Below are positions 6,001 to 26,118 of a DNA stretch of 64,000 nucleotides, one piece after another. The notes beneath the pieces were generated by a model that saw nothing but the letters and a program-made list of their open reading frames with translations, searched no databases and was not told the DNA's origin. The position numbers were made by a program, and so were the translations under genes. Location: NCBI RefSeq assembly GCF_002835465.1, contig NZ_PIZM01000004.1:1-64000 (forward strand), in the 5' to 3' direction. This DNA is from Psychromonas sp. psych-6C06. GTDB lineage: Bacteria; Pseudomonadota; Gammaproteobacteria; Enterobacterales; Psychromonadaceae. The first letter of the stretch is position 1; every line of letters starts with the position of its first letter.

Positions 6001-7288
6001 AAGCTTGTCCACCTCCATTGGCACCCGACACATCAACGCTTGCTTGATCAAATAGCCCAACTTTATCACCTAATACTTTGACATCACCACCTTGACCAGT
6101 GGTTTCTGCAACAGCAGATATGGTTGCATTTTCGGTTAATAAATTGGTATCAGTGGCATGAAGCTCAACCGCACCCGCACCGGTTATTTGTGAATTAGCT
6201 AAAATTTGCCCGGAGTGTGTAACATTTTGGCCAATTGCGACAACTTGCCCCGCTGTCTGGCTATAGTCACCCGAAGACACATCAATGGTACCGGTATTGA
6301 TTAAATCGGCACCGCCACCGAGAGTGAAGCTGCCATCGGCATGTACCACCGCACTGGTTGCTTCATCTAAGCCATTGACCGCTTGTGAAAAAACATCTTG
6401 GCTGGTACTGGCAGTTAGTAAGACGCGACCACCTTGGGCATTAATTTCACCACTATTAACCACAGCTGCATCAAGGCCTAATTCATCTTGGAGAATCTCT
6501 TTACTGACTTTAACGCCAAGCAGGCCACCGGTTTCAAAGGTCAATACCGCTTGTTTGCCAGCGGCCAACGTCACAGAGCCTAAATCAGCTGAAATCAAAC
6601 CACTGTTTTCAACCTGCTTACCAATAAGAGCAACATTACCGCCAAGCGACGCACTAATTAAACCTCGGTTAATCACCTTACCTTCGGTGCCGACGACTTC
6701 ATCAAAGATGTAATCGCCGTTCATGAAGTCACTGGTCTTCATATTTAAACCAGAAGCAATAATCCCGCCGACGTTAAGCACGGCAGTTTCCGTGAACACT
6801 AAGCCATTCGGGTTAATTAAAATCACTTGACCGTTAGACTGGATTTTACCGGCAATGGTTGAGCCATTAACACCAAGAATACGGTTAAGGGAGATGGATT
6901 TTCCGTTGGGCTGGATATATTTCACCACCTCGGTGGCATCGATGTTATAGCTATCCCAATCAATCGCCATATTTTGTGAGGTTTGTTTGATGATAGTGGC
7001 TAAATCATCTTTAGAGATAGTCCCCGTACCACCAACAACCACGCCCCCTTTCGGCCCAGCATGTGCCTCATTAAACAGGGTGGGTAAGCTAAAGCCTGCA
7101 AGGGTAATGCACACCGAAAGTGCCGTGCCCGAGAAACGTAGGCGACGTTGCACCCAGCGGTTTTGTGGTAAGCTTTGTAATAGGTTTTGATGAAACGCGC
7201 CCACCAATGAGCTAGTGACGACTTTTTGACTCACAGCAGAAGTTGATTTGACTAAAGCATTCGCAGAGAAAGGCAGTAAGCGTTTCAT
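1..7288 (-). CDS. Giant two-partner-secretion (FHA-type) adhesin, 3' part outside window
   Basis: One reading frame is open from an ATG at 7288 to the left edge (at least 2429 codons, no stop seen), so the C-terminus is missing. Residues 1-77 form a very long signal peptide ending AHA/GPKGG. The next 250 or so residues resemble the TPS secretion domain, with NPNG at 159-162 and a GGIIASG stretch after it. A beta-helix-like passenger follows, containing the FHA-family landmarks GGFVETS and WLIDP. From about residue 1130 the protein changes to repeats of roughly 70-120 residues built from an N-x-W core (NAWSITG, NTWKING, NIWTIDG), a following F-x-N-F/I strand and GGxGxD turns resembling RTX nonapeptides. 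Family knowledge says such proteins are exported through a TpsB outer-membrane pore; none is in view. Likely a cell-surface or secreted adhesin. Many apparent plus-strand frames here are only shadows. Confidence 0.93.
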   Translation of the reverse strand, partial: MKRLLPFSANALVKSTSAVSQKVVTSSLVGAFHQNLLQSLPQNRWVQRRLRFSGTALSVCITLAGFSLPTLFNEAHAGPKGGVVVGGTGTISKDDLATIIKQTSQNMAIDWDSYNIDATEVVKYIQPNGKSISLNRILGVNGSTIAGKIQSNGQVILINPNGLVFTETAVLNVGGIIASGLNMKTSDFMNGDYIFDEVVGTEGKVINRGLISASLGGNVALIGKQVENSGLISADLGSVTLAAGKQAVLTFETGGLLGVKVSKEILQDELGLDAAVVNSGEINAQGGRVLLTASTSQDVFSQAVNGLDEATSAVVHADGSFTLGGGADLINTGTIDVSSGDYSQTAGQVVAIGQNVTHSGQILANSQITGAGAVELHATDTNLLTENATISAVAETTGQGGDVKVLGDKVGLFDQASVDVSGANGGGQALIGGDYRGENKQIRNASGTYVGNEATINADAITNGDGGEVIVWGNDSAKVYGTINAKGGSESGDGGFVETSAKYVDLDLRVDTSAEQGEGGEWLIDPYNITINENGNSEDDETFDREWSYTDSDGKLYSQRFTNDGEDSYIKISTLRLALGYSSKVLIETSEGGLSEANGGGNITLDAELDINDLGHRGQPTLTLSAHHDVIINQKIYDSNQAANTFNPNLNLILEANKNRADADDGGGDVIIDNDIFTYGGSFTADGDNIIVTVGKQINTDGKKNSAGGAINLTAHVGSIQAGELSSNGGLVTSINTVGQSAGNITLQAATGITVTGFDTNYTDADGDPYTIKEAISALGSKGNDISGIGDGTGQNGGKGGQINLTSTSGDISIQGSINSSGGDAHGKDGNEDATGGDAGRVTIATAGSITVDDIINNGGAGAQTGDTAIGGNAYAAPEVPEAINPNAIILQGATINLQGQLSAQGGTGNEALGKGGNIVLNGTVVVAADNVTLTSTGSTAGDIQFKDTLDGKSGNSSNLSLTGKDITFSNHVGSNQQLGNLTFANSGAVNASNYSISANSIDTTDGTINPTITTTDFSAGNIVTVGKATIAVTNAVNVGTITTDGGATGAVTLNGASVLTTDITTSGGTIGGAVDIAAQDITVGTIDASGSDTGGDISLVASENGTDETQSTPSITLNGDINAQDTTDQSDNGTITVKVDGTYANGAIVVNHKAAFSSVFVYQGTGTNSNHSLTSANIADNAWLLNAAQQGTLNGLTFSGFHQLIAGGSKEDINDVSNDTLTGLAQSNKWTITGAGNGTVAKNETTPTDTITFTGMKNITGGGSADLFEIDDGGQISGVIDGGGGNNELQSIKATGSNAWGLTATKHSGKFNDKVFKNIQTITGSENATDTLTGHAQANDWLIDSAGGGLVKEVAAGDADGISFNNINSLVGNANDDTFTVATDGHLTGTISGGTSGNNKLISSKEATEDTPLDNNWAMSGVHAGSLNGVDFSNMQTLQGSANAYVTDKLTGADKSVSVVQHNAWSITGNGIGTLNEVDAANANKTSFEQIEELIGSKGDDQFVFSGNGDVSRIDGGEGSNRLTAWSSTDNFNSWTVDGIKNSLTQTVNGGDPVLKTVIFSNVTALNGGSGVDKYDVNTNLASIDAGAGNDEITVGTGGGLTTVNGDAGNDIITINAFDQITNLDGGGDDDKLVFAIAGADVNLQSNPLTNIETVSATGEDNKLTAWNSSGSDINVWTVNGSSNTLIQQESDLTELKSIKFSGFDKLHGGTGADEFTISTSLKEVNTGNGINKVTLNDTTNQKDTELVATLLGGTNDDTLEFSNAGQSVDLNTLGSFETVNAATGSNTLTGWNNTDYQNIWTIDGGAEKIEQKDGSTELQSITFSNFDILKGGTGVDEFTVTTTIDSIDAGGGADKVDINELALVTSTITGGAGDDTVNLLLENKTVDISKLALVENVNGKASNDGSNTNILQGITDSTNGWVVDAKNAGQVGTIKFTNFANLKAGNKGDTFTISAEINKITGGDGADTFSLDEGFIIKDLIDGAGTVADKAQLISSDALTLNLNKLKSIENVNGTGGAVYTLQAGNSDSNTWEVSSDHGGDFNKDTEGAIKFTNINNLIAGSGGDGFTISAMIASITGGVGKDTINIDNSGNVTGTVIGGSSDSVQDTLNFTGDIVKHLAMSEFESIEVINGNGGRLTGDDNDNTWKINGVNSGTVAGFAFTGFSSLLGGEGADSFVFVYDATDPSNIIKGSIGSVDGKATGKANSIEAYQGVTNKWNFETTSKGVIKEVDDTQYVAFSNIKTYTGGGAGNEWIDFSGAGTHDINVDDYFGFTGIIGNGAGSTLNGQDGFENNWTVTKIDGLGDAKNDGVNDGIFNNANSKGDMYFLDFANLTGGNLKDSFVIVDDASISGTIDGGAGTTDNSLQANNNINVWDVSSSNQGTIKVANVVSVTFKNIDKLVGGNAKDTFNITNLDLITEIQGGEGAGS

Positions 7289-7322
7289 ATTAATATCCCT
7301 ATTACAATGTTATACAATAACG

Positions 7323-7345
7323 CCACCTTGCTCCATGCAAGGTGG
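7323..7345. terminator. Perfect hairpin between lipoprotein and adhesin genes
   Basis: CCACCTTGC and GCAAGGTGG form a perfect 9-bp stem around TCCAT. It lies just upstream of the adhesin start (7288) and downstream of the lipoprotein stop. There is no T-run on the minus side, so it may be an attenuator or mRNA-stability element rather than a true terminator. Confidence 0.45.
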
Positions 7346-7365
7346 TTAAAAATAATAAATACAAG

Positions 7366-7385
7366 TAGCCGTCAGTTTACGGCTA
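7366..7385 (-). terminator. Possible terminator of the BspA-like lipoprotein gene
   Basis: TAGCCGT and ACGGCTA form a 7-bp stem with a 6-nt loop, 12 nt past the lipoprotein stop codon on the minus strand. It is followed by T-rich sequence (CTTGTATTTATTATTTTTA). This may separate lipoprotein transcription from the adhesin gene. Confidence 0.45.
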
Positions 7386-7396
7386 ACAATAAATGG

Positions 7397-8893
7397 CTAA
7401 GGAGCAACACCGCCATCTGTAATAAGCCAAAAATTGGGAGCGCTAGTTAGAACATTACGAGCATCTTGCGAGCTAGATGAATAGTTAATTGTGCCAGCAC
7501 CAAATTCAACGCCTTGTTTTAACGTTAATTGACTCCAACTAGTTAGTATCGCGTCATAATTGGTTTGAGATAGACCTGAATTAGAAAACATTTTTTCCAT
7601 TCTCGTTGCAGAGCTTACATCCCAACTGCTCAAGTTTTGGTCAAATGCTAGAGCCCCTTCAAACATACTGTACGTCTCTTCAACTTGACTGACATCCCAG
7701 TTACTTATATCACGATTAAAAGCTTTAGCTCCTGCGAACATTTCACCAGTCTTAGTTACAGAGCTAACATCCCAAGTACTTAGATCTTGATTAAAGGAAT
7801 CCGTATATGCAAATAAAGCACTCATATCTGTTACATTACTTACGTCCCAGTGTTCGATTGAACTATTAAACATTAGTGCCCCTGCAAAAGCTTCTCGCAT
7901 ACTTTGAACCAAACGTAAGTCTGGGGTATCTTGAGCATGACTAACCATATTGACAGTTTCTCCAAAAGCGCCTTGGAATGATAACCACTTAATGTCGCCC
8001 CACTGTTCAATTGAAATTAACTTCTCAGCATCATGCTGAATCAAAGAGTCAAAGTTTGTTTGTGGGAAAACCCCACGAATTGTAACCGTGTAAACACCGG
8101 GCCCAGTTTGATAACCAGGAACAGTATTATCATAAGTATGCGTATAATCCCCGGTTAAATTTTCACTCGTCGTGCCATCTCCCCAATCTACGTTATAGTC
8201 ATAGGTAAACTCCCCCCCATTGTCGATGGAATTCGTGGTGATTTTGATTTGATCATTCGCACTAAAACCTGATTTAGTGGTGTCCCATGTAGTAATAAAA
8301 GGCTTTTGTTTACGTACCACAACTGTTCTTACGGTTGTTGCAGCATTACCTGCATTGTCTGTGATGCTATAAGTTAGTGGGTAACTACCCAATTTAGTTG
8401 AATCTATCTCACCTGAAGGCGCCTCAACGGTTAATGCCCCATCCACATCATCCTGTGCTATTGCGCCGAGCTCTTGGTAAGTATCAAATTGCACCAACCC
8501 GACTTCATTGTCACCATTTAACGTAATCACCGGCGCCGTTAAATCTTCAACCGATACGGTACGTTTTTCAGTCGCTTTATTGCCCGCTTTATCAGTCGCC
8601 GTGTAAGTAATGATGTAATCGTTCATCATGTCGCTATTCACGCCACCTTCCACACTCACCTCAACAACGCCATCAACAGCATCTAAAGCGGTCGCACCTA
8701 GCTCAACATAATCGCGACCATAAGCATGCTTTAATGGGTTCGCGCCCGTTACAGTGATAACTGGCGCAGTGGTATCTTTTTTCACTTCTGGCGCCGAACC
8801 GCCACCACCGCCACAACCAGATAGTGCGGTTAAACTTAAGACAAGCGCCGTTAATGGCGCTTTGTTAGAAAAGGAGATTGGTAACCGTGTCAT
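7397..8893 (-). CDS. BspA-like surface lipoprotein with DUF5011 and DUF285 repeats
   Basis: A 498-residue protein with a lipoprotein signal (lipobox LSGC followed by a glycine run), so it is probably anchored in the outer membrane. Two Ig-like DUF5011-type domains follow (about 45-115 and 118-192, each starting APVIT and ending in a D-x-AGN-x-A motif). Then comes a PKD-like segment around residues 200-270 (YNVDWGDGTT, GVYTVTIRG). The C-terminal half has BspA-like DUF285 repeats with the signature FN-x-x-x-x-x-WDVS-x-V (four to five copies of WDVS). In other bacteria such repeats occur in surface proteins that bind host or matrix components. It is oriented like the adhesin gene 108 bp downstream, which suggests a shared surface role. 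The family assignment is firm; the ligand is unknown. Confidence 0.88.
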   Translation of the reverse strand: MTRLPISFSNKAPLTALVLSLTALSGCGGGGGSAPEVKKDTTAPVITVTGANPLKHAYGRDYVELGATALDAVDGVVEVSVEGGVNSDMMNDYIITYTATDKAGNKATEKRTVSVEDLTAPVITLNGDNEVGLVQFDTYQELGAIAQDDVDGALTVEAPSGEIDSTKLGSYPLTYSITDNAGNAATTVRTVVVRKQKPFITTWDTTKSGFSANDQIKITTNSIDNGGEFTYDYNVDWGDGTTSENLTGDYTHTYDNTVPGYQTGPGVYTVTIRGVFPQTNFDSLIQHDAEKLISIEQWGDIKWLSFQGAFGETVNMVSHAQDTPDLRLVQSMREAFAGALMFNSSIEHWDVSNVTDMSALFAYTDSFNQDLSTWDVSSVTKTGEMFAGAKAFNRDISNWDVSQVEETYSMFEGALAFDQNLSSWDVSSATRMEKMFSNSGLSQTNYDAILTSWSQLTLKQGVEFGAGTINYSSSSQDARNVLTSAPNFWLITDGGVAP

Positions 8894-9179
8894 AAAGCAT
8901 CCCTGTAAAAATTTATTTGAGTAAGTACGTTAAATTGCCAAGCAGTTAAAATACACTGAAAGCATAAACAAAATAACAAAATTCAGTAGCGCAAATTTAT
9001 CAGAAAACAAGCAAAAATGACATTAAAATAAGCAAAATGTGGCAATCTTTACACTTAACAACAATCAATTACCTTCTAAGCGACAAATCAGCGACAAAAT
9101 CAAACTAACAACACAAAAAAGACACTGCACTTTATTATTTCAAAAAAGTGATCGAGTACATTCGGTAATTGGTTAATTG
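8894..9179. other. AT-rich non-coding region upstream of the lipoprotein gene
   Basis: Very AT-rich sequence with A-runs and no credible reading frame. It presumably carries the promoter of the lipoprotein gene on the minus strand. No clear operator was recognised. Confidence 0.5.
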
Positions 9180-21790: not shown

Positions 21791-21907
21791 AAAATACTCA
21801 TAATCAAAAATGAGGGGCGATTATGCCATAAAGTGAATATATTTTGCTAAAGAATGCGGCCACACTGCCGATAGTTTATTTATGCAGCCCAATTGATGAG
21901 ATTAATT

Positions 21908-22777
21908 ATGAAAATACAGTTAATGGCAACGCTACTTTTATGCATTAATAGTAGCTATGCTACTAATAAAAGCTACAACGCCAACATTGATAATTCATTG
22001 TGGTACATCTCTAGTTCGACGCCTATTCAGTGTACCCTTGAGCACCCTATTCCAAGGTATGGTCAAGCTCACTTTGAAGCGCGTGCAAGTAAAAATATCA
22101 ATCTTGATTTTATTTTGCATAGTAAACGCGCACTCCCCAAAACCCGCTCAGTGACCTTAAAGTCGGTACCACCGCAATGGCGACCAGGTAGCGAAGCACA
22201 GACAATTGGAAAAGTCACCTTCCACCAACAATTTGATGGTTACGTAACGCGTCAAAATGCATGGCAGATGCTCAGTGAACTCGAACAAGGTAAAGTACCC
22301 ACTTTTTATTATCAAGATTGGTATAACAAAGATCAGGTAACCAGCGTTGGTTTGTCTGCAGTTAATTTTATGAAAAGTTACGACGACTTTAACAACTGTA
22401 TCGACCAATTGCTTCCATACAATTTCGATGACATTGCCTACAGTATTCTCAAATACAATAAAAACGGTGTTAAGCTAACCGCTTTTTCTAAAAAACGATT
22501 AAAAATGATCGGCGATTATATTAAACATGACGAGAGTATCAGTGTTGTACTCGTTTCAGGTTACTCAGACAGTTACGGTGCGAAATATCGTAATTTAGAA
22601 CTCTCTCAGCAACGTGCAAGTTCAGTTAAAGATTACCTTGCTCAGCTAGGCCTCGATGATGAAAAAATCCAAGTATCCGGATATGGAGAAAAACACCATG
22701 TTGCAGATAATGGAACTGTTCTGGGACGTATGCAAAACCGACGCGTGGTGATTTCCATCGAAAGAGAAGAGATATAA
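21908..22777 (+). CDS. motY: Sodium-driven polar flagellar protein MotY
   Basis: Part of the T-ring that anchors the PomAB stator around the basal body of Na+-driven polar flagella in Vibrio-like bacteria. The product has a signal peptide (MKIQLMATLLLCINSSYA), the MotY-specific N-terminal domain (CTLEHPIPRYGQAHFEARASKNINLDF in two pieces, two conserved cysteines) and a C-terminal OmpA-like peptidoglycan-binding domain (about 170-290, GYSDSYGAKYRNLELS, QQRASSVKDYL). The ATG at 21908 best fits the signal peptide; an ATG at 21896 would add four residues. No other flagellar genes are in the window, which is normal since motY is often solitary. Confidence 0.93.
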   Translation: MKIQLMATLLLCINSSYATNKSYNANIDNSLWYISSSTPIQCTLEHPIPRYGQAHFEARASKNINLDFILHSKRALPKTRSVTLKSVPPQWRPGSEAQTIGKVTFHQQFDGYVTRQNAWQMLSELEQGKVPTFYYQDWYNKDQVTSVGLSAVNFMKSYDDFNNCIDQLLPYNFDDIAYSILKYNKNGVKLTAFSKKRLKMIGDYIKHDESISVVLVSGYSDSYGAKYRNLELSQQRASSVKDYLAQLGLDDEKIQVSGYGEKHHVADNGTVLGRMQNRRVVISIEREEI

Positions 22778-24065: not shown

Positions 24066-24728
24066 ATGGTTCTCTTTTCTCAAGAAATATACACATTAAT
24101 CTCAACTGCACTCTCTGAATTAGAGGCTTCACAGGCATCTGGACGTACTCCGAAAAACCCACTTAATGAAGCCCATTATCTTGGTGCTTGGGTGACAACA
24201 GCAATGAAACAGAAACGCTTTGATGGCATTACTGTACCAACTTTAAAAGCATGGCAAAGCAAAGCGCGAAGTTTAGGTAAAAATGCGGGATTAAAAGATC
24301 AATTTGCCTATCTTCAAAAATGCTATGACCAAGTTCTTGATGAAGATAAAAAAGTAAAAGTGGTCAGCCGTGCTCAAGTTGATGCGTTAGTCGAAGCACT
24401 TGAGTTACAACAATGGATGGTTAACACCGATCTAATAGTCGGTAATAAACTTAATCGCCACAGTGGTGGGGCAGCCTCTTTAATTATTTGTGCAGATGAA
24501 CTAGCTGACTGTTTCGATGAACAAGATATTTTAATCAAGCCTCTGTCTATTTACTTGCGTGGCGATTTACAAATATTGGTTGGTGCTGCCTTTACACAAA
24601 ATTTACTGTTGCATAAAATCACTGATTATAAATCTAAGGTAAAATATCACGGTGAGTTTATCGTTTATCCTAATAATGATGGCGAGAAACTTCCCGAGTT
24701 TCCAATAGATGTTGTATTAGAGAAGTAG
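24066..24728 (+). CDS. Hypothetical cytoplasmic protein, possibly DUF2913-like
   Basis: A 220-residue soluble protein without signal peptide or membrane segment. It is helix-rich in the first half (repeated Leu/Ala heptad-like spacing, SALSELEASQASGR, LKAWQSKARSLGKNAGLKDQ) and more beta-like towards the end (HGEFIVYPNNDGEK). The pattern, with an N-terminal helical bundle and a basic middle, recalls the DUF2913 family of Vibrionales and relatives, but I recognise it only weakly. It is 13 bp upstream of the 24742 gene and surely in one operon with it. No function is offered. The frame, ribosome site (AGG before the ATG) and coding character are convincing. Confidence 0.6.
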   Translation: MVLFSQEIYTLISTALSELEASQASGRTPKNPLNEAHYLGAWVTTAMKQKRFDGITVPTLKAWQSKARSLGKNAGLKDQFAYLQKCYDQVLDEDKKVKVVSRAQVDALVEALELQQWMVNTDLIVGNKLNRHSGGAASLIICADELADCFDEQDILIKPLSIYLRGDLQILVGAAFTQNLLLHKITDYKSKVKYHGEFIVYPNNDGEKLPEFPIDVVLEK

Positions 24729-24741
24729 TCAAAGGATGCCA

Positions 24742-26118
24742 ATGTTAGAACAGCAAAGTTCAATTTTATCAGAACAAGAGTTGCAATTATTGGCATCGTA
24801 TTCACGAAAAAATAACTACTCTCGTTGCAAAGTTTACAGCTATAAGAATACCTACCGTAGTATTACTAACGAACTGCAAGTTGCTAATAATATTGAGCAG
24901 TTAATTTTTATGCTTCGCTCAAGCCCACGTGGCATAGCATTGATTGTTCCTGATAGTATCGAATCTGAGCCAGCTAGTGATATTGAAGAGTTAGTGACAC
25001 TCTTAACACATCGCGCCGATATTCGCGTACTTTGGTTAGGCTCATTACCAAGCATGGAAACTAACATTTCTTCTTTTGTACATTGTAGCGATGAAGAAAA
25101 TCTTAAAGAAAATATCACCGAATGGAAACAATCACTTAAACGACTCTTTGAAAAGTGGTTAAGCGATTACTCTGTTGTGTTAGTAAGCTCTGATAATAAA
25201 AAAAGCATTCATCAGACAGCCTTTAACAATATAGGTTTAGATAATGTCCACTACCTTGATGCCGATACCCTTAGTGCTTCGCTAGGTAAACCTAAGCTAT
25301 TAATTATTGATTTACAAACAGAGGGGTTACACCTTGTCAACGAGTTGAATGAGCTCACTAATAACGACTGGTTTCCTATCATTATCACGTTTGGTGAATT
25401 ACCGGCCAACGTTTGCTATGCAACCTATACACTGATCGAAAATAGTGGTTTTCCAGTACTTGCCACATTAAATAATATTCCTGATAAATCCCAGTGGGAG
25501 CAGCTATTTTTATCGCTTTTTTCACGCGTTTACTTAAAACATTGGGTCAGTGAATCCCCCACTTCTGCCGGTGCTTATAAACTTTATCATTTAGAGAAAA
25601 GTGTCATTGAAAGTTATTTTTGCGTACATGGCATGAATAAAACACAGATTTCGGCACTGCCGAAGTCCGACAATATCCGCTATATTATCCATGCTAAAAG
25701 TGTTCAAGACTGGTTTCCCGATGGCGTCCAACGTGAAATACGTTTTAAACTCGCTGACGAATTGGGATGCGATGCCAATCATTTAGATATTTGTATTGAG
25801 CACCCCGAAAGAATATTGCGCACCTCTATCTTTTTTTCAGGGCTAGTCATGGCTCGCTTAATTAATACCAAGGTTTATTGGTGGATTCACAGTGAACGTG
25901 AACTTTTAACAGACATTCTTAAAAACTTTCCCGTTTCTGATGTCATTTTGTCTGAATCGCTTAGCCACCAGCTGATCAGAGGTCCTTCAGAGTTATTGCT
26001 TGATTTTCTCGAGCAGGCACAGCAACAACAGATCAATATGATTGCTAGCCTATCCCCTTCAAATAGCACCGCAGAAGCACTTGCTTTATATGGTATTACA
26101 GCAGTTATTAGTCGATAA
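24742..26118 (+). CDS. Unknown protein, possibly a degenerate receiver-EAL signalling protein
   Basis: A 458-residue protein of unrecognised family. The ATG at 24742 is preferred because AAGGA sits 5 bases upstream; the ATG at 24736 directly abuts that site. Residues about 150-250 have receiver-like alternation (VVLVSSDN, LLIIDLQTEGLHLV, FPIIITFGELP) with an Asp at the usual phospho-acceptor place but lacking the normal acidic pair. The last 110 residues resemble the C-terminal half of an EAL domain (VSDVILSESLSHQLI, LLDFLEQAQQQQINMIASL, TAEALALYGITAV) without the catalytic glutamates. If right, it would be an enzymatically dead c-di-GMP or protein-interaction module. It is in operon with the 24066 gene. 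The similarity is by eye only. Confidence 0.5.
   Translation: MLEQQSSILSEQELQLLASYSRKNNYSRCKVYSYKNTYRSITNELQVANNIEQLIFMLRSSPRGIALIVPDSIESEPASDIEELVTLLTHRADIRVLWLGSLPSMETNISSFVHCSDEENLKENITEWKQSLKRLFEKWLSDYSVVLVSSDNKKSIHQTAFNNIGLDNVHYLDADTLSASLGKPKLLIIDLQTEGLHLVNELNELTNNDWFPIIITFGELPANVCYATYTLIENSGFPVLATLNNIPDKSQWEQLFLSLFSRVYLKHWVSESPTSAGAYKLYHLEKSVIESYFCVHGMNKTQISALPKSDNIRYIIHAKSVQDWFPDGVQREIRFKLADELGCDANHLDICIEHPERILRTSIFFSGLVMARLINTKVYWWIHSERELLTDILKNFPVSDVILSESLSHQLIRGPSELLLDFLEQAQQQQINMIASLSPSNSTAEALALYGITAVISR

Follow-up and report, generated by a model that had tools for sequence, protein, structure and literature searches.

The second gene of a two-gene unit in Psychromonas sp. psych-6C06 encodes what profile and structural evidence together identify as a decayed REC-EAL response regulator, and it stands directly behind a gene of the DUF2913 family. 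We give about even chances to the reading that this regulator descends from a RocR-type REC-EAL protein and has turned into a non-enzymatic adaptor acting independently of phosphorylation, with the DUF2913 protein as its likeliest candidate partner. Both genes are encoded on the plus strand of the window, the 64,000-nucleotide stretch of contig NZ_PIZM01000004.1 that was analysed: gene 1 (24066–24728, 220 aa) specifies the DUF2913 family protein and gene 2 (24742–26118, 458 aa) the atypical response regulator, in which receiver and EAL domain are both degenerate, with no membrane span apparent in either product. These two reading frames agree with those described in an earlier note made from the letters of this DNA. 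An in-frame ATG at 24736, six bases before the start chosen for gene 2, would yield a product of 460 aa and lies 7 bases from the stop of gene 1; judged from the sequence, AAAGGA (24731–24736, plus strand) is likely to be the ribosome-binding site of the start at 24742, since it is spaced better for that ATG. The flanks of the pair are occupied by minus-strand genes, one for a YajD-type HNH nuclease and one for a NUDIX protein, which leaves gene 1 and gene 2 as an isolated two-gene unit that is probably co-transcribed in Psychromonas. A simple promoter scan revealed no promoter excess at the locus and an Rfam scan no Rfam elements there. Close upstream, at 21893–22777 of the window, is a gene for a MotY-type flagellar protein, a neighbourhood that is also seen in loci of P. 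marina and P. hadalis.

Domain anatomy of gene 2

Gene 2 returned no family match from Pfam, NCBIfam or PHROG, and a Pfam scan of 15 members of its family detected neither receiver nor EAL models at E-values up to 5. Run on whole genomes, the gene 2 family profile gave weak matches to the receivers of canonical REC-EAL proteins of ~400 aa, and against the PDB its best match was the response regulator 3eqz (E 2.8e-7), with most of the ten PDB matches carrying response-regulator names. Alignment of the profile with ten canonical REC-EAL proteins (hhalign, E 1.1e-10) was collinear, continuing past the receiver into the EAL domain. Its score was 85.9, whereas none of 60 column shuffles scored above 26.5, and its significance derives from the receiver part. 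The C-terminal half alone was not significant in profile comparison with the REC-EAL references, nor with the EAL domains of the same genome (profile score 18.7; shuffled maximum 23.5).

Structure prediction was more informative for this half of the protein. An AlphaFold model calculated from 11 sequences (gene 2 itself and ten relatives) has a mean pLDDT of 76, rising to ~85 in the C-terminal half, and a pTM of 0.47, which corresponds to a loose placement of the domains; the single-sequence prediction was uninformative (pLDDT 38). In a Foldseek search with the model, four chains of RocR from Pseudomonas aeruginosa (PDB 3sy8) came out on top (best E 2e-9), followed by GGDEF-EAL and EAL-only structures, with target-normalised TM values of 0.54–0.59 for the better EAL-only chains; comparison with a viral fold library gave nothing useful. 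As EAL-only structures match the model, the EAL assignment is independent of the receiver, and gene 2 is predicted to possess an EAL fold behind its receiver. The earlier note had described an EAL-like C-terminal half devoid of catalytic residues and had named an unrelated predicted fold as grounds for abandoning that description; the predicted fold agrees with a receiver-EAL protein. RocR thus offers the closest fold and has the same order of receiver and then EAL domain, but gene 2 differs from it in being without both active sites and the phosphodiesterase motif, in possessing an extra N-terminal domain of ~140 aa and in having an EAL domain that is ~40 aa shorter.

The pseudo-receiver domain (25168–25530, plus strand) was delimited through profile matches to PDB receivers and to the receivers of REC-EAL proteins, which bears out the receiver-like block reported before. 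The lone Asp of this block, D190 in the numbering of the 458-aa product (25309–25311, plus strand), falls on the phospho-acceptor column, and its presence there in 11 of the 13 Psychromonas sequences would be in keeping with a receiver that can still be phosphorylated and that drives the protein through D190. However, the alignment columns show Asn in the other two Psychromonas sequences and no acceptor Asp in either of the distant relatives aligned, and out of the five active-site residues of a receiver (DD, D, T/S, K) gene 2 has the single D alone, itself not invariant, with the acid pair, the Thr/Ser and the Lys all unconserved. We therefore regard control through D190 as highly improbable; by a published definition of a pseudo-receiver (PMC12632262), the domain qualifies as one. 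Preceding it is an N-terminal alpha/beta domain (24832–25167, plus strand; residues ~30–143) that adds to the anatomy given in the earlier note. According to DSSP analysis of the AlphaFold model, where the pLDDT is mostly ~80–88, this domain displays the strand order of a receiver, with alpha-1 and alpha-4 missing and a long final helix: its topology is receiver-like and suggests a second pseudo-receiver.

The EAL domain (25573–26115, plus strand) is degenerate and shortened, as seen from the model (pLDDT ~85 in this region), the EAL-only Foldseek matches, motif counts and alignment columns. The motifs DDFG, E-x-T-E, AEGVE and QG are present in 10/10 reference REC-EAL proteins and in 0/14 close members of the gene 2 family (13 from Psychromonas together with one from genome G096), meaning that the metal-binding and catalytic residues have been lost from the family. 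Between strand 1 and strand 3 the model has ~34 residues compared to ~72 in the references, such that ~40 aa are missing. A dead EAL domain, or a pseudo-receiver, could nonetheless bind c-di-GMP without cleaving it and relay the signal, perhaps to DUF2913. There are precedents for both: FimX and LapD have a dead EAL fold in common with gene 2 and bind c-di-GMP through residues that they retain (PMC7288161), whilst REC1 of ShkA, along with the pseudo-receivers of atypical response regulators, resembles gene 2 in exhibiting a receiver fold without phosphotransfer residues. ShkA is a hybrid kinase, unlike gene 2, and is the only one of these pseudo-receiver proteins for which c-di-GMP binding has been demonstrated (PMC7010744). 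Against such a role for gene 2, the c-di-GMP positions used by FimX (the EAL motif with its R, the beta-7 E and the beta-8 QG) are unconserved when the single residues of the EAL half are mapped by strand register, as opposed to structural superposition. The loss of these positions together with the missing segment makes a protein adaptor likelier than a c-di-GMP receptor, so that of the two roles put forward in the earlier note for a dead EAL protein the former is favoured; gene 2 may still bind c-di-GMP at a non-canonical site.

Selection, distribution and gene neighbourhoods

Given that its catalytic residues are lost and that it is missing from some Psychromonas, gene 2 might be seen as the decaying remnant of a pseudogene. 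This possibility was rejected on the basis of dN/dS, and we give it practically no credence: over five close species pairs the value for the whole gene is 0.05–0.10, which indicates a functional gene under strong purifying selection, and the EAL half (0.02–0.11) is as constrained as the rest of the gene, with no relaxation. Moreover, the reading frame is intact in all 13 Psychromonas carriers.

These carriers, which include the source genome of the window, were found among 24 Psychromonas genomes searched, and in every one of them (13/13) gene 2 is situated directly behind the DUF2913 gene. The adjacency persists across deep branches of the genus while the flanking genes vary between clades, and the gene trees of DUF2913 and gene 2 concur in their main groups. 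Other Psychromonas possess DUF2913 without gene 2, and no remnant of gene 2 was detected in the Psychromonas that are without the gene. At least two gains or losses are needed to explain this presence pattern, with ~4 changes by parsimony, and hence gene 2 is probably old in Psychromonas and has been lost several times with retention of DUF2913. No gene 2 homologues were found in plasmid or phage records.

Beyond the genus the two families largely go separate ways. In an order-wide sample of 395 genomes, where an E-value below 1e-15 was taken to denote a clear gene 2 homologue, DUF2913 is present in 132 genomes, 118 of which are without gene 2; a clear gene 2 homologue is present in 26, with DUF2913 in 14 and without it in 12, all 12 belonging to a single family (f10). 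Being widespread without gene 2, and having been kept where gene 2 was lost, DUF2913 is not dependent on gene 2. These counts leave room for an adjacency that is no partnership, in which gene 2, a conserved dead REC-EAL adaptor, acts on a different target and has no more than a promoter in common with DUF2913 in Psychromonas. Several neighbourhoods point in the same direction: the distant gene 2 relatives of family f10 lie directly behind a purT-like gene in the six loci read, DUF2913 of most Vibrio and Photobacterium loci is immediately preceded by an rsuA-like gene and a gene for a Bcr/CflA-type transporter, and genome G096 contains DUF2913 and a closer gene 2 relative that are not adjacent. 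DUF2913 outside Psychromonas did not adjoin a gene 2 homologue in the loci examined, and the loci of Photobacterium, Vibrio and Ferrimonas had none within ~5 kb of it. What speaks against mere adjacency is the retention of the pairing in every Psychromonas carrier, over deep branches and despite differing flanks, and on balance we hold it to be somewhat unlikely. The new signalling pair envisaged in the earlier note is thus partly supported, by the conserved adjacency within Psychromonas, but the pairing is confined to this genus. A Nif3-like gene is often found near the purT-like gene and gene 2 in the loci of the distant relatives.

In four loci of one Psychromonas clade, the gene behind gene 2 encodes a membrane dCache/PAS-GGDEF protein (in L045 at 7104–9110, where the GGEEF motif is intact); in four further loci of the same clade this gene is located directly behind DUF2913 and gene 2 is missing. 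The cyclase gene is thus kept behind DUF2913 whether gene 2 lies between them or has been lost. A diguanylate cyclase next door would suit a c-di-GMP receptor; however, most gene 2 carriers, including that of this window, have none adjoining, and together with the altered EAL half this makes the receptor reading decidedly unlikely in our view.

The product of gene 1, which could not be placed in the earlier note, is a clear member of DUF2913 (PF11140, E 2.7e-74, 249.8 bits versus a gathering cut-off of 23), which is a family without known function. Gene 1 is conserved within Psychromonas, at 54–81% identity, and a sequence-profile search revealed no convincing relative of solved structure. Two open-access mentions of the family concern SO_1380, a DUF2913 gene of Shewanella oneidensis that has been tabulated with a predicted Fur motif (PMC12442407), and a machine-learning screen on K. 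pneumoniae and carbapenems in which DUF2913 proteins are among the features. Because of the motif listed for SO_1380, a Fur box was sought upstream of the operon: the best match in the window (13/19) is within the range of shuffled upstream regions of relatives, no conserved Fur box was found among the relatives' upstream regions, and the candidate was rejected. The conserved rsuA-like/transporter neighbourhood might hint at the role of DUF2913. A DUF2913 homologue was also encountered at 1891944–1892531 of NZ_AP026896.1, an Aeromonas caviae record from a plasmid collection whose size (4.94 Mb) points to a misfiled chromosome.

A proposed adaptor role for gene 2

Since gene 2 is under strong selection but has neither active site left, the most economical reading is that it functions by binding. 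For the adaptor that we favour, a RocR-type REC-EAL ancestor would have lost its phosphorylation chemistry as well as its phosphodiesterase chemistry, and a second receiver-like domain would have been gained or kept at the front. Activity would then be set by the amount of the protein, or else by binding of a ligand or protein, and the surface of the EAL fold would bind a protein target in a manner comparable to YdiV with FlhD and BluF with BluR. YdiV (RflP) and BluF resemble gene 2 in exhibiting an EAL fold without phosphodiesterase residues: both are reported to act via regulator binding, YdiV with FlhD as its target, and BluF neither cleaves nor binds c-di-GMP. There are also differences, as BluF carries a BLUF light sensor, unlike gene 2, and YdiV is not known to carry a receiver, again unlike gene 2. 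Furthermore, the partners of YdiV and BluF are known, whereas for gene 2 it is adjacency that makes DUF2913 the best candidate partner.

Taken further, DUF2913 and the dead receiver-EAL protein might work together in Psychromonas as a two-protein signalling module not described before, with a link to a membrane diguanylate cyclase in one of the clades. The pseudo-enzyme would then be an adaptor controlling either DUF2913 or the cyclase, and neither phosphorylation nor hydrolysis of c-di-GMP would be involved; this extension appears rather doubtful to us at present. The significance of gene 2 lies in being a response regulator that has lost both its input chemistry (phosphorylation) and its output chemistry (c-di-GMP hydrolysis) and yet is strongly selected, outside every curated family library tried. 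Gene 2 thus provides a testable case of the conversion of an enzyme into an adaptor beyond the enteric bacteria as well as a candidate partner for DUF2913, and the two-protein module, if true, would afford the first functional handle on this family.
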